The notes under the pieces: generated by a model
Seen by the model: only the letters and a program-made list of their open reading frames with translations
The model's database searches: none
What the model was told of the DNA's origin: nothing
In this document: positions 37,716 through 44,951 of the stretch, one piece after another
Layout: every line of letters starts with the position of its first letter
How positions within the stretch are numbered: position 1 is the first letter of the stretch
NCBI GenBank assembly: GCA_028289425.1
Contig: JANQPL010000011.1
Coordinates: 248,001 to 312,000, forward strand
DNA from: Alphaproteobacteria bacterium
GTDB taxonomy: Bacteria > Pseudomonadota > Alphaproteobacteria > JANQMY01
DNA: 64,000 nucleotides
Direction of reading: 5' to 3'
Translations under genes and position numbers: made by a program

Positions 37716-39257
37716 TTGAGCAAAATCTCCATGATCCCAGAAGAGATTCCCGTACTGATTATCGGCGGCGGCCCTGTGGGTATGACCTGCGCTTTACTGC
37801 TCGAAAAATATGGGCTCAAGAGCCTGGTGATCGAGCGCACGGATGCGTTGCCCCAAACGCCGCGGGCTCATGTGATCCGCAAGCGGTCCATGGACATTTT
37901 CGACAAAATCGGCGTGGCGGACGCGATTTACGAGGCCGTACCGGGCCCTGAAACCCGCTTCATTACCTGGGTCGCCCAATTGGCGGGCAAGGAAATCGGC
38001 CGCATCGACATGGCCAGGGACGGTATTCCCGGCGGTTGGGCAAACCTGCCGCAAAATCTGCTGTGCCCGATCCTTTTGGAACAAATGGCCCACAACGAAT
38101 TGGCGGACATTGCCACGGAAACGGAATGCCTCGACATTTCAACGTCGCCTAACGGCGTGACGGCCACGCTTCAGAACGCCGGTGGAACCAAAACGGTATC
38201 GGCGCGCTGGCTCATCGCGGCCGACGGTGCCGGCAGCCGCACGCGCGACGCGCTGGGCATCCGCATGGTGGGGCCCGACAATCTCGCCCAGTTTTATATG
38301 GTGCACATCAAGGCCGATTTGACCGAATGGGTGAAGGACCGGCCCGGGCCGCTTTTCTGGATTCTCAACCCGGAGGCGCCGGGCACGCTGATCGTTCATG
38401 AGCTCGAAAAATCCCATGTGTTCATGGTGCCGTCCCGCGGCAAAGAGCTGACCGAAGACAAATTGGTGCAGCACATCCGCCGCGGCCTGGGCGGCGATGT
38501 GCCGATCGAGATCCTGAACGCCGGCCGGTGGACCGCTTATTCCCAGATTGCGGAGCAGTATCGGCAGGGCCGGGCGTTTTTGGCGGGCGATGCCGCGCAC
38601 CGCTTCCCGCCGTCCGGCGGCCTGGGCCTCAATACCGGCATATTGGATGTGCACAACCTTGCTTGGAAACTTGCCTTGGTCGACAAAGGCCTGGCGGGCG
38701 ACGCACTTCTCGATTCTTACGAAATCGAATGCCGCTCCGTGGCGCAGACCAATGCGGATGCCAGCCTGCACAACATGATGACCCTGGCCGAAGTACACGA
38801 GGCCATCGGCCCCTTCGATACCCTCAAGGACCTGGAAACGCGCCTCGACCAACTGTCGCCGCCCGCACGGGAAAACCTTCAACAAGCGATCGACAACCAA
38901 ACCAGCCATTTCACGTCCGACGGCATCTATCCCGGCACCTGGACGGGGGAACCCCATCGCGATTTGGGCGTGCCGACGAATTATCGCTCGTTCAAACTGC
39001 TGATGCGGGTGCCGCCGAAATGGGCGGGCCCGGTAGCCGCGCTCGAAAAGAAACACAGCCTACGGATCGAGATCTATCCGTTCATCCAGGCCCATGACCG
39101 CCAGGGGTTTCTTAAGGACAAAGAAGCCGTCCTTTTACGCCCCGACGATCAAGTGGCTTGGGTGGGTGCCACTCCTCAGGAGCTGGATGACGCTGTGGCA
39201 GCGGCGCTTGCCGGACCGGTCAGCGGCGCCGACGAGGGGACATCGACAGCGGCCTGA
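37716..39257 (+). CDS. FAD-dependent aromatic hydroxylase (PheA/TfdB-like)
   Basis: 513 residues. It starts with a TTG codon preceded by GGGAGGG. The FAD dinucleotide motif is V-L-I-I-G-G-G-P-V-G-M-T. The second FAD motif is G-D-A-A-H-R-F-P-P-S-G-G-L-G-L-N-T-G near residue 290. The P-R-A-H-V-I-R-K-R-S motif of group A flavin monooxygenases is present. It would hydroxylate a phenolic ring using NAD(P)H and oxygen, feeding the VOC dioxygenase of the same operon. The last 82 bp overlap, antisense, the end of nhaA. Confidence 0.88.
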   Translation: MSKISMIPEEIPVLIIGGGPVGMTCALLLEKYGLKSLVIERTDALPQTPRAHVIRKRSMDIFDKIGVADAIYEAVPGPETRFITWVAQLAGKEIGRIDMARDGIPGGWANLPQNLLCPILLEQMAHNELADIATETECLDISTSPNGVTATLQNAGGTKTVSARWLIAADGAGSRTRDALGIRMVGPDNLAQFYMVHIKADLTEWVKDRPGPLFWILNPEAPGTLIVHELEKSHVFMVPSRGKELTEDKLVQHIRRGLGGDVPIEILNAGRWTAYSQIAEQYRQGRAFLAGDAAHRFPPSGGLGLNTGILDVHNLAWKLALVDKGLAGDALLDSYEIECRSVAQTNADASLHNMMTLAEVHEAIGPFDTLKDLETRLDQLSPPARENLQQAIDNQTSHFTSDGIYPGTWTGEPHRDLGVPTNYRSFKLLMRVPPKWAGPVAALEKKHSLRIEIYPFIQAHDRQGFLKDKEAVLLRPDDQVAWVGATPQELDDAVAAALAGPVSGADEGTSTAA

Positions 39258-40468
39258 GGCCGTTCCCGCTCGGGCGCCATCGTCCGGCGCTTACCCGACG
39301 CGCCGATGGCCTGGCGTAGCACAATGTAACCAATCGTGCCGGAGATGATCGACCCGATCAGAACGCCCAGGCGCACCTGGTTGAGTTGATCGGCCGTGTC
39401 GAACGCCAGCGTCCCGATGAACAGGCTCATGGTGAAGCCGATGCCGGTCAAGCAGGCGACGCCATAGATCTCGCGCCATCCCACATTCTCCGGCAGGCGC
39501 ACCCAGCCCAGCTTAACGGCGGCCCAGGTGGCGCCGAAGACGCCAAGCTGTTTGCCGATGACCAGGCCCAAGATGATGCCGAGCGGGATGGGCGCGGCCA
39601 AGGCTTCAAATGACAGGCCCGTCAACGGCACGCCCGCATTGGCGAATGCAAAGGCCGGCAGCACCAGAAACGCTACCCAAGGATGGAGCCCGTGTTCCAG
39701 ATCATGAAGCGGCGAATGGTCGTCCTCCTCCGTCTTGCCCATGGGAATGGTGAAGGCAATCAGGACGCCCGCCAGTGTGGCGTGCACACCCGACTTCAGG
39801 AAGCAGACCCAAATCATCAGCCCAATGATGACATAGGGCACCAGATTTCGCACACCGTTGCGGTTAAGGGCAATCAACGCGCAAAGGCCAATGCCGCCCA
39901 GAAGAAGCGATGTGACCGACAGGTTCGCCGTATAGAACAGGGCAATGATGACAATGGCGCCTAAGTCATCAATGACGGCAACCGACAATAAGAACACTTT
40001 CAAGGACACCGGCACCCGCGACCCCAGCACCGCCAAGATACCCAAAGCGAACGCGATGTCGGTGGCGGCCGGGATCGCCCAGCCGGTCAGCGCCACCGGA
40101 TCGTTCCAAGCAACGCCCGCATAAATCAGTGCCGGCAAGGCCATGCCGCCGATCGCAGCGATAATGGGCAACAGGGCCTTGTCGAAAGAAGAGAGCTCCC
40201 CATCCACCACTTCGCGCTTGATTTCCAGTCCGACGAGGAAGAAGAACAAGGCCATCAGGCCGTCATTGATCCACAGCAGAAGCGGCTTGGCGATTTCAAG
40301 CGCGCCGACTTTCACTTCGACCGGTGTTGATAAGAGCGTATCGTAAAGCCAGCTCAACGGGGAATTCTCTACCGTCAGCGCCAATATGGCGGCCATGAAC
40401 AGCAGGACACCGGGAGCGATGTCTTTCTTTAAGAACCGGTCAATTGTATGAAATACCTCGTGCGCCAT
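39176..40468 (-). CDS. nhaA: Na+/H+ antiporter NhaA
   Basis: 430 residues with 12 transmembrane helices. The ion site is Asp167-Asp168 in S-V-A-V-I-D-D-L-G, and the crossing extended chains are marked by T136-D137 in A-A-T-D-I-A-F-A-L-G. F-F-L-V-G-L-E-I-K-R-E is the usual helix II signature. The ATG at 40468 (M-A-H-E-V) is chosen because upstream sequence is a structured leader. It exchanges Na for protons, maintaining the gradient that the divergent sbtA would use. The C-terminal 30 residues are Ala/Ser-rich and overlap the convergent FAD hydroxylase gene by 82 bp. Confidence 0.92.
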   Translation of the reverse strand: MAHEVFHTIDRFLKKDIAPGVLLFMAAILALTVENSPLSWLYDTLLSTPVEVKVGALEIAKPLLLWINDGLMALFFFLVGLEIKREVVDGELSSFDKALLPIIAAIGGMALPALIYAGVAWNDPVALTGWAIPAATDIAFALGILAVLGSRVPVSLKVFLLSVAVIDDLGAIVIIALFYTANLSVTSLLLGGIGLCALIALNRNGVRNLVPYVIIGLMIWVCFLKSGVHATLAGVLIAFTIPMGKTEEDDHSPLHDLEHGLHPWVAFLVLPAFAFANAGVPLTGLSFEALAAPIPLGIILGLVIGKQLGVFGATWAAVKLGWVRLPENVGWREIYGVACLTGIGFTMSLFIGTLAFDTADQLNQVRLGVLIGSIISGTIGYIVLRQAIGASGKRRTMAPERERPQAAVDVPSSAPLTGPASAAATASSSS

Positions 40469-40491
40469 TAGCCCTTTTCCAACAATAAAAG

Positions 40492-40660
40492 CCAGTCCCC
40501 TGCCCGGGACTGGGTCGGTACCTTCGTGCATTTTTTCAAATGCCTTGCCACATCGAAGCCCGTCCCTTCCCAAAAAAACCGTCGTGGTCGGCAACCTCCC
40601 AAGGTGGCAAGGGGAAGGTATGTTCGGGCTTCAATCTCGGAAGATCAGCCGACCACGACC
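40492..40660 (-). promoter_or_regulatory. Structured 5' leader of nhaA, riboswitch-like
   Basis: Read on the minus strand the leader holds a 12-bp perfect stem (40659-40648 with 40592-40581) followed by T7 (40578-40572), a terminator-like element with a 55-nt loop. A segment in that loop (40632-40612) is complementary to sequence just after the T tract (40571-40555) over 15 bp, which would compete with the first stem or form a pseudoknot. Next come a hairpin GCATTT-GAAA-AAATGC with a GNRA loop (40543-40528), and a hairpin CCAGTCCC/GGGACTGG with a U-rich tail 24 nt before the ATG. This is the architecture of a ligand-controlled switch. Li/Na-responsive nhaA-I and nhaA-II RNAs are known in front of nhaA, but I could not match a consensus. 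Confidence 0.6.
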
Positions 40661-40712
40661 CTCAAATAGAGCGGGGGCGCGCTCAGACAATCCATCGATA
40701 AGGTGGGAAACG

Positions 40713-40772
40713 ATAGGTTTTGGCTATAAGCGGCTTTTCCGACGGGTGATAGTTATTTCCTATTAAACTATC
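40713..40772. promoter_or_regulatory. Two OxyR-type LysR boxes between nhaA and sbtA
   Basis: ATAG-N7-CTAT occurs at 40713-40727 and again at 40749-40763, 36 bp apart start to start. The second is also part of a longer inverted repeat, GATAGTT-N11-AACTATC (40748-40772), the T-N11-A form of LysR operators. They are 129-188 bp upstream of sbtA and lie in the shared divergent region with nhaA. The rest of the 432-bp intergenic stretch is the nhaA leader and ordinary sequence. Confidence 0.7.
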
Positions 40773-40900
40773 CGATCAAAATCGATTGTGCCAAGCGGCG
40801 GACATTCTACCTTCCATCGGAACTTCAACAATATAAGAAGCGGGCAGGCTGGGACGACGCGTTTTTACAGCGCATTGGTGCCGGGTGCTCGCCAGCGCCT

Positions 40901-41881
40901 ATGTTAGACGTCCTCGGCCTTGCGGTCACAAACCTTACTTCTCCACCGATCCTCTTTTTCGTTCTCGGGCTCGGGGCCGCCTTGTTGCGCTCCGATCTGT
41001 CGATCCCGGAAACCATCGGCAAGACGCTGGCGATGTATTTGATGATCGCCATCGGCTTTAAAGGCGGCGTGGAAGTGGCCACCCATGGCCTGGACAGCGC
41101 CTTTATCGCCACCATTGTGGCGGCTTTGCTGATTAGCTTCTTGCTGCCGGTGGTGGCGTTTTGGATGTTGGGTCTGATGTCCCGCTTGGGCCAGGTGGAT
41201 CGCGCGGCGATTTCGGCGCATTACGGGTCCGTCAGTATCGTGACTTTTGTGACCGCCGTTCAGTATTTGGAGATCCAAGACCTAAGCTATGAAGCCTATC
41301 TGATTGCCATTGTCGCGTTGATGGAAACGCCGGCGATTGTCACCGGCATCTTGTTGAGCCGGTCGTCCGAGAAGGGGGGCAAACCGGCCCCCATGTTCAA
41401 TGCCTATGTGCTGCGCGAAGTTTTGCTCAATGGCAGCATCGTGCTGCTGGTGGGGGCCTTTGTGATCGGCATGATTTCAGGCACCCCCGGCAAGGAAGCC
41501 CTGCAGCCGCTTACGGGCGACCTGTTCACCGGCATTTTGTGCCTGTTCCTTCTGGATATGGGCTTGGTGGCCGGGCGGCGGCTGTTGGATACGCCGCTGA
41601 TCAGCCCGGGTCTTGTTGCCTTCGCCATCGCCATGCCGGTGATCGGCGCCTCGGCGGGACTGGCGTCGGGCATTATTGCCGGCTTGAGCCCCGGCGGCAC
41701 GGCCTTGCTGGCCACCCTGGCGGCCAGTGCCTCTTATATTGCCGTCCCGGCTGCCATGCGGGTTGCGCTGCCCCAGGCCAATCCGGGCATATATTTGACC
41801 CTGTCGCTGGCGATCACCTTCCCCTTTAATATTACCGTGGGCATACCGCTCTATCAGGCGGCGGCTCAGCTGTTTCTGTAA
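40901..41881 (+). CDS. sbtA: SbtA-type sodium-dependent bicarbonate transporter
   Basis: 326 residues, about 10 transmembrane helices in two inverted halves. G-F-K-G-G-V-E-V-A follows helix 2. A-H-Y-G-S-V-S-I-V-T-F and P-G-G-T-A-L-L-A-T-L-A-A-S-A-S-Y-I are the two broken-helix crossing motifs of SbtA, which form the bicarbonate and Na sites. In cyanobacteria SbtA imports bicarbonate with Na for carbon concentration. Here the host shows no carbon-fixation genes in the window, so a role in supplying carboxylases or in pH homeostasis is inferred. sbtB follows after 12 bp. Confidence 0.88.
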   Translation: MLDVLGLAVTNLTSPPILFFVLGLGAALLRSDLSIPETIGKTLAMYLMIAIGFKGGVEVATHGLDSAFIATIVAALLISFLLPVVAFWMLGLMSRLGQVDRAAISAHYGSVSIVTFVTAVQYLEIQDLSYEAYLIAIVALMETPAIVTGILLSRSSEKGGKPAPMFNAYVLREVLLNGSIVLLVGAFVIGMISGTPGKEALQPLTGDLFTGILCLFLLDMGLVAGRRLLDTPLISPGLVAFAIAMPVIGASAGLASGIIAGLSPGGTALLATLAASASYIAVPAAMRVALPQANPGIYLTLSLAITFPFNITVGIPLYQAAAQLFL

Positions 41882-41893
41882 CGGAGTGACGGT

Positions 41894-42205
41894 ATGAACG
41901 ACGAACACCGACGCCGGCGCATTGAGATCATCATCGAAGCGCCCTTGCTTGAAAAGGTTATTACTGAAGTGCAGGCGTGCGGCGCCAAAGGGTACACTGT
42001 CTTGCGCGGCCATGCCGGCAAGGGCGAGAAGGGATCCTGGCAATTGGGCCAGATTTCGCCCGCTCAACACATGATGATCGTCATCATCATCGCGGATGCG
42101 GACATTACCGACCGTATTCTGTCACGGCTTGCCGAAGACCTGGCGCTTTATTCAGGGGTTGTGTCCGTGTCGGACGTTCAAGTGATGCGGCCGCAGCGAT
42201 TTTAG
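41894..42205 (+). CDS. sbtB: PII-like SbtB protein
   Basis: 103 residues of the GlnB-like ferredoxin fold: R-I-E-I-I-I-E-A-P-L-L-E-K-V-I at the first strand-helix, G-A-K-G-Y-T-V at the T-loop base, and M-M-I-V-I-I-I-A-D-A-D-I as the third strand. SbtB binds AMP/ADP/cAMP and gates SbtA in cyanobacteria. The T-loop is short, and the C-terminal redox hairpin (C-G-P-E-G-C) of cyanobacterial SbtB is absent; the chain ends Q-V-M-R-P-Q-R-F. Encoded 12 bp after sbtA with GGAGTGACGGT before the ATG. Confidence 0.85.
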   Translation: MNDEHRRRRIEIIIEAPLLEKVITEVQACGAKGYTVLRGHAGKGEKGSWQLGQISPAQHMMIVIIIADADITDRILSRLAEDLALYSGVVSVSDVQVMRPQRF

Positions 42206-43430: not shown

Positions 43431-43485
43431 ATAGTTTGCAAAGTGAACAAAATCGGCCTACAATCGATAGGAAAAACCTATCGAT
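43431..43485. promoter_or_regulatory. OxyR-type LysR boxes upstream of the stress protein gene
   Basis: A perfect 23-bp palindrome at 43463-43485 contains ATAG-GAAAAAC-CTAT (43467-43481) flanked by ATCG/CGAT. A half box, CGATAG followed by TTTGCAA, starts with ATAG at 43431, exactly 36 bp from the ATAG at 43467, the same register as in front of sbtA. The sites are 88-142 bp upstream of the usp GTG. From 43486 to 43646 nothing else was recognised. Confidence 0.7.
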
Positions 43486-44012: not shown

Positions 44013-44951
44013 ATGACCACAGAAACCACAGCTCTCACCCTTCGGCAGTTGCGCTATCTCATCGCGCTGGGCGAAACTCAACACTTCCGCAAAGCCGCGG
44101 AACGGTGTCACATCACACAACCATCCTTGAGCGCCCAATTGCAGACCATGGAAGAAATTCTTGGCGTGCAGTTGGTGGAACGCAGCCGGTCCGGCGTGGC
44201 GCTCACGCCCGTCGGCCGCGAAGTGGCCTCCCGGGCGCGCACCATTCTGGACAGCGTTCAAGGCATTGTCGATTTTACGGCCGGCGCTCAGCATGGCCTT
44301 GTGGGCACCATCAGGCTGGGGGCCAAATCCACCCTTGGCCCTTATCTTCTGCCGCATGTGGTCGCGAAACTTCACCGGAACCATCCGGAACTCAATCTCT
44401 ATGTGCGCGACGGCGCGCCGCGCGAGCTTGAGCATGAATTGGTCGACGGGCTGCACGACATCATCATCGCACAATTGCCGATGATCGGATCGGAATTGGT
44501 GGTGGAGCGCCTTTTCCGCGAGCCCCTCTATCTGGCGCTCGCATCGGACCACCCCTTGGCGAAGGAAACCAGCGTCTCGCCCAAGGATTTGCGCGAGCTG
44601 AAGGTGCTGTCGCTCAGCCCCCAGTACCATCTGCACGATCAAATCATTGCTCTGTGTAAAGATTTTGGCGCCACCCTGTCGCGGGATTATGAAGGCACCA
44701 GTTTGGATGCATTGCGCCAAATGGTGGGCATGGGCATGGGGGTCACCTTCCTGCCCGCGCTTTACGTGAAGTCCGAAATCCACGCGCGCAGCGAGGTGGT
44801 GGTGAAACCGATCACCGGCAAACGCATCACCCGCTCGGTCGGCCTGGTCTGGCGCAAAAGCGGTGGCCGGAACGTGGCGTATATTCGCGTCGCAGACGCC
44901 ATCCGCGACGTGGTTGCCAGCAAGTTCAAAGATCTCATCGTCGACGGATAG
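44013..44951 (+). CDS. OxyR-like LysR family regulator lacking the peroxidatic cysteine
   Basis: 312 residues. The HTH is F-R-K-A-A-E-R-C-H-I-T-Q-P-S-L-S-A-Q-L. The effector domain aligns with OxyR through L-H-D-Q-I-I-A-L-C-K-D-F-G-A and T-S-L-D-A-L-R-Q-M-V. In E. coli OxyR this segment reads C199-L-R-D-Q-x4-C208; here the position of C199 is His206, while C208 is kept as Cys215. A disulfide switch is therefore impossible in the usual way. It may sense something else, such as metal, pH or a small molecule. OxyR-type boxes lie before sbtA/nhaA and usp nearby, which suggests local regulation. Confidence 0.85.
   Translation: MTTETTALTLRQLRYLIALGETQHFRKAAERCHITQPSLSAQLQTMEEILGVQLVERSRSGVALTPVGREVASRARTILDSVQGIVDFTAGAQHGLVGTIRLGAKSTLGPYLLPHVVAKLHRNHPELNLYVRDGAPRELEHELVDGLHDIIIAQLPMIGSELVVERLFREPLYLALASDHPLAKETSVSPKDLRELKVLSLSPQYHLHDQIIALCKDFGATLSRDYEGTSLDALRQMVGMGMGVTFLPALYVKSEIHARSEVVVKPITGKRITRSVGLVWRKSGGRNVAYIRVADAIRDVVASKFKDLIVDG

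Follow-up and report, generated by a model that had tools for sequence, protein, structure and literature searches.

Does the DNA upstream of nhaA in this alphaproteobacterial genome encode a cis-acting RNA, and does that RNA belong to one of the known lithium or sodium riboswitch families? The question was raised by a first-pass annotation of the window, the whole 64,000-nucleotide stretch analysed here, which marked a riboswitch-like structured leader in front of nhaA on the minus strand. The claim of a structured leader upstream of nhaA is supported, and the leader is real and lineage-specific. As the best explanation, which taken as a whole we hold with somewhat less than even confidence, we propose a genus-restricted cis-acting 5' leader of about 190 nt that sets the yield of full-length nhaA mRNA.

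Gene surroundings and anatomy of the nhaA leader

The Na+/H+ antiporter gene nhaA occupies positions 39176-40468 on the minus strand, with its ATG at 40468 (Pfam PF06965, E 1.9e-152; TIGR00773 above cut-off). Divergent from it lies a gene for an SbtA-type Na+/bicarbonate transporter, then a PII-like gene (sbtB), and next a universal stress protein gene (usp) and a LysR-type regulator gene (44013-44951), whose best NCBIfam model was OxyR, below its cut-off. In the genus relative described below, the sbtA, usp and LysR genes are unchanged in order and orientation. The neighbourhood of nhaA and sbtA would be accounted for by a Na+ cycle that serves bicarbonate uptake; no literature was found on sbtA together with nhaA and LysR or OxyR. 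According to match coordinates, nhaA and sbtA (39176-42205 here) are neighbours in several alphaproteobacterial families, and their orientations differ: they are divergent here and in genome G083, convergent in G010 and G143, and on the same strand in G087 and G106.

The structured leader extends on the minus strand between 40660 and the nhaA start at 40468, and all four elements described in the first-pass annotation are present in it. The first is a hairpin, P1 (40659-40581), detected by stem search and folding and lying at or adjoining the inferred 5' end. Its core is a perfect 12-bp stem of GTCGTGGTCGGC (40659-40648) with GCCGACCACGAC (40592-40581); past a bulged U, 11 more pairs including several G-U (40646-40636 with 40603-40593) extend the stem and leave a 32-nt loop. 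The 3' arm is followed by GG and then by a run of seven T (T7, 40578-40572), so that the annotated perfect stem followed by seven T was recovered with these two nucleotides in between. The 64 kb contain five T7 runs, counting both strands, and a stem of more than 5 bp precedes only this one.

The tail that follows (40571-40513) is complementary to P1, as seen by stem search, folding and a tail-shuffle test. Three of its segments face the P1 loop, namely GGGAAGG (40571-40565), CGGGCTTCGAT (40562-40552) and GTGGCAAGG (40551-40543), while the second partner of the P1 5' arm is GAAGGTACCGACC (40525-40513). A single 15-bp pairing of loop and tail had been claimed. The complementarity is real, but it is not one helix: it consists of an interrupted helix of 11 bp with G-U pairs (40635-40625 with 40562-40552), nested with 7 bp (40618-40612 with 40571-40565), and of a rival 9-bp pairing (40612-40604 with 40551-40543).

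Sequence and folding also confirmed the GAAA-tetraloop hairpin, GCATTT-GAAA-AAATGC, at 40543-40528. The second annotated hairpin, with a U-rich tail near the start codon, corresponds to P4 (40513-40492), a terminator-like hairpin of 8 bp with a 6-nt loop, built from CCAGTCCC and GGGACTGG. It is followed by CTTTTATTGTT, then by GGAAAAGGG and the nhaA start codon, 23 nt separating P4 from the start. In a strict scan of the whole 64-kb window, no hairpin other than P4 combined 8 Watson-Crick pairs with a T-rich tail.

Upstream of its ATG, the nhaA frame has no stop codon as far as a TTG at 40594, and another in-frame ATG lies at 40531 (40469-40594, minus strand). An N-terminal NhaA extension encoded in the leader was rejected on sequence comparison, though not strictly: the extension was not convincingly alike between the two genomes, and the match to NhaA family profiles begins at residues 4-12 of the ATG form.

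Comparison of the leader structure with chance

Perfect stems of at least 8 bp sum to 37 bp in the leader. This sum was reached in none of 2000 dinucleotide shuffles and at 4 of 658 other positions sampled along the window. The folding z was -2.9, and none of 200 shuffles was as stable. When P1 was kept and the tail was shuffled, the loop/tail complementarity was matched by one of 3000 shuffled tails. The statement that this is more structure than chance would give was thus borne out by the dinucleotide, fold and tail shuffles and by the window positions.

Conservation of P1 in the genus

A homologue of the leader was found in one relative only, the other genome of the genus in the set (L003/L115), whose NhaA is 83% identical. 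The upstream regions of the two genomes aligned with a score of 148 versus a shuffle maximum of 124. In the relative, P1 is formed by GTGGCTGGC and GCCGGCCAC, and its 12 pairs show two compensatory double changes (T-A to C-G and T-A to G-T), one wobble and one broken outer pair. P1 had 95.8% paired cells in the two-leader alignment and 21-71% when slid. With n = 2, 8 of the 12 pairs are invariant and the covariation shuffle control (135 of 500) was not significant; hence, the support for P1 comes from the sliding control and from its position. Within the intergenic region, conservation is highest in the P1 arms, at 56% and 68% identity versus 31% for the tail. The T7 run, the GAAA hairpin and P4 are all missing from the relative's leader, and comparison of the two leaders revealed no clear conserved core besides P1. 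Covariation, on which the first-pass annotation had let its stems depend, was seen for P1, at two pairs and in one relative, and for none of the other stems.

The leader DNA matched only itself in 96 genomes and is thus not a dispersed repeat in this genome. Among 385 genomes of the class, the P1 pattern was confined to the two genus leaders, and a P1 covariance model applied to 58 genomes and some 85 nhaA loci found nothing of note besides these two. Among 80 nhaA loci from named genomes none exceeded 64% identity, and none of those scanned had the leader; no close NhaA was found on plasmids. Two matches of the P1 pattern in viral contigs lay within phage-like coding sequence and were taken as chance. 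Neither nhaA of another family, where a LysR gene lies next to it (L006, L007), nor the second nhaA of the genus relative (C387) has P1 in its short leader. The relative has a contamination estimate of 10%, and its second nhaA, with the short P1-less leader, lies near an OxyR-like LysR gene (L116 5044-6342).

Predicted bistability and its consequences

In prefix folding, P1 forms once its 3' arm is made, at -40.5 kcal/mol in the window genome and -34.9 kcal/mol in the relative. With the whole tail present, the lowest-energy fold in both genomes is one in which P1 is broken, by a margin of 1.6 to 7.7 kcal/mol that depends on the genome and the 3' end. The margin of this best fold over the P1 fold was as strong in 2 of 400 shuffled tails for the window and in 18 of 400 for the relative. 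Prefix folding and the tail-shuffle tests thus support the mutually exclusive pairings proposed earlier, and bistability is predicted for each of the two leaders. The alternative partners of P1 occupy non-homologous positions in the two leaders, and the computed barrier between the folds is 45 kcal/mol in the window genome, which is high, and 21 kcal/mol in the relative.

Between the two folds of the window genome the pair probability of P4 is 0.91 versus 0.93 and start-codon exposure is unaltered, hence no output switch is predicted. Furthermore, the P1-breaking segments are made after T7, so that they cannot act as an antiterminator for P1-T7. The unchanged P4 and start codon, the high barrier and the late P1-breaking segments together speak against a riboswitch or attenuator of the textbook kind and reduce the confidence in any switch.

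The lack of a predicted output switch also suits a simpler reading, in which P1 is a mere 5'-terminal stabilising hairpin of the nhaA mRNA and the tail complementarity and P4 are incidental or genome-specific. P1 is the sole conserved element, is located at the inferred 5' end and persists in the relative, which has no T run, as would be expected from such a hairpin. However, the loop/tail complementarity and the P1-breaking tails are beyond chance in the shuffles given above, and a plain protector needs neither a conserved 3' arm sequence nor a 55-nt loop. We consider this reading unlikely on balance, while giving it serious weight.

The leader could also represent a new class of ligand- or ion-sensing riboswitch (for Na+, Li+, pH or a bicarbonate-related signal) with mutually exclusive folds that control nhaA. 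Such a class would fit the place upstream of nhaA, the bistable architecture predicted in both genomes and the terminator-like hairpin ahead of the start codon. Nevertheless, what is conserved is a simple hairpin in which no aptamer core can be recognised, this hairpin is known from two leaders of one genus, the terminator-like parts of the expression platform are not common to both, and the window genome shows no predicted change in P4 or in start-codon access. A new riboswitch is thus improbable in our judgement, and the cis-acting leader that sets mRNA yield is preferred.

Putative promoter and LysR-type sites

A putative core promoter, TTGTCT-N16-TATTTG, was recognised from sequence and alignment at 40690-40663 on the minus strand; its match to the consensus is weak. 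Its counterpart in the relative, TTGATC-N16-TATGTT, keeps both position and spacing. A consensus promoter scan did not list this pair and listed an upstream one at 40794-40767 instead, which would place the LysR sites inside the transcript and was thought less likely. From the putative promoter, transcription would start within a few bases of P1. A start downstream of the structure had been named as a finding that would speak against the leader; because the putative promoter lies upstream of the structure, such a start is probably not the case.

A pattern scan found two putative LysR-type (OxyR-like) sites, ATAG-N7-CTAT, in the gap between nhaA and sbtA, a distal one at 40749-40763 and a proximal one at 40713-40727 (both listed without a strand). 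The proximal site ends 52 nt before P1 in this genome and 51 nt before it in the relative. A third site lies between usp and lysR (43467-43481). The 5.4-Mb genome holds 18 such sites, and three within 2.8 kb is far above expectation; a reversed-pattern control gave 21 sites, so the pattern is not enriched genome-wide. The relative has one site in each of the two gaps (L115 1571 and 4644). Further sites were seen at L117 6330 and L118 7047, and one site lies upstream of an nhaA of another family with a LysR gene adjoining. The clustering in the nhaA/sbtA/usp/lysR module, together with the site in the other family, points to a LysR regulator that may control both nhaA and sbtA.

With a putative promoter at one end and P4 at the other, the region might instead be a small RNA gene, in which the stretch from the promoter through P1 and the tail to P4 yields a transcript of its own, about 160-170 nt long and active elsewhere, with nhaA expressed by read-through. 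P4 would be a good terminator-like site to end the structured part, but the relative has no terminator-like hairpin at the equivalent place and the tail is poorly conserved. We regard a small RNA gene as quite improbable.

Search for known RNA families

At gathering score, no Rfam family was found anywhere in the 64-kb window, and a permissive search of 40300-40900 gave no family even at E<=10. The nhaA-I (RF03057) and nhaA-II (RF03038) models, with gathering scores of 37 and 70.4 bits respectively, were run on 142 genomes of the class including the window's own; neither had a match at the leader and none exceeded the cut-off. In its own genome, the best place for RF03057 scored 22 bits on another contig, and RF03038 had no match at E<=1. 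In control genomes the nhaA-I search gave one match above cut-off, showing that it works, while the nhaA-II search gave none and is thus the weaker one. The suggested membership in nhaA-I or nhaA-II therefore did not hold in either the Rfam or the whole-genome covariance-model search, and the Na (DUF1646) RNA, put forward for comparison as well, fared no better, the leader having no Rfam match up to E 10. As far as family models can tell, the leader is not a known lithium or sodium riboswitch family. A divergent member of the nhaA-I (Li+-I), nhaA-II (Li+-II) or DUF1646 (Na+-I) RNAs, for which gene context alone speaks, can be practically dismissed in view of these searches.

Proposed mode of action

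The anatomy, the conservation of P1 in one relative and the failure to match any known RNA family are observed, the bistability is predicted, and the promoter, the start, regulator binding and the effect on nhaA are inferred. Initiation is probably under the LysR-type OxyR-like regulator, acting at the putative ATAG-N7-CTAT sites shared with the divergent sbtA-sbtB, and the leader likely acts after transcription initiation. P1, the conserved part, would be the start of the RNA and fold first; the finished tail could then invade P1 to give the long-range fold that is predicted, for both genomes, to be slightly more stable. Most likely, the leader sets the amount of full-length, translatable nhaA mRNA. 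This may occur by protection of the 5' end by P1 and, in this genome, by partial termination at P1-T7 and P4; since the relative lacks both P4 and the T run, any termination would be confined to this genome. Nothing in the data calls for a ligand. A sensor RNA not described before and particular to this lineage, whose 5' hairpin is invaded by its own tail and which links Na+ export by NhaA to Na+-driven bicarbonate uptake by SbtA, is a long shot.

Should nhaA be under the control of this leader, a LysR-controlled module of Na+-driven bicarbonate uptake and Na+ export would gain an RNA layer, and there would be one more nhaA leader with no relation to the Li+ riboswitches. The case also serves as a warning that a structured leader before nhaA does not by itself amount to a Li+ or Na+ riboswitch.

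Comparison with known systems

The nhaA-I/Li+-I (RF03057) and nhaA-II/Li+-II (RF03038) riboswitches likewise lie upstream of nhaA, but neither the 55-position model of the former nor that of the latter has a match in the leader at E<=10. The DUF1646/Na+-I riboswitch controls Na+-related genes (PMC9337991); the control of a Na+-related gene would be alike, while the leader is unmatched by all Rfam families at E<=10. According to White et al. 2022 (PMC9646797), ribosome access is the supposed target of most Li+-I and Li+-II RNAs, and terminators occur in rare variants. The nhaA leader does carry a terminator-like hairpin but has no sequence likeness to these RNAs.

Transcription attenuator leaders are similar in having a first strand with an adjacent or a distant partner and a terminator-like hairpin before the start. 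A terminator form between promoter and gene is predicted as P4 in the window genome and absent in the relative. The nhaA leader differs from attenuators in that its competing partner lies 3' of the first T run and its second hairpin, P4, is indifferent to the choice of fold; the alternative fold does not abolish the terminator-like hairpin, as its pair probabilities indicate. Finally, 5'-terminal stabilising stem-loops are known in other bacterial mRNA leaders. The nhaA leader resembles them in its stable hairpin at the inferred 5' end, and differs from them by its large loop and its conserved 3' arm sequence.
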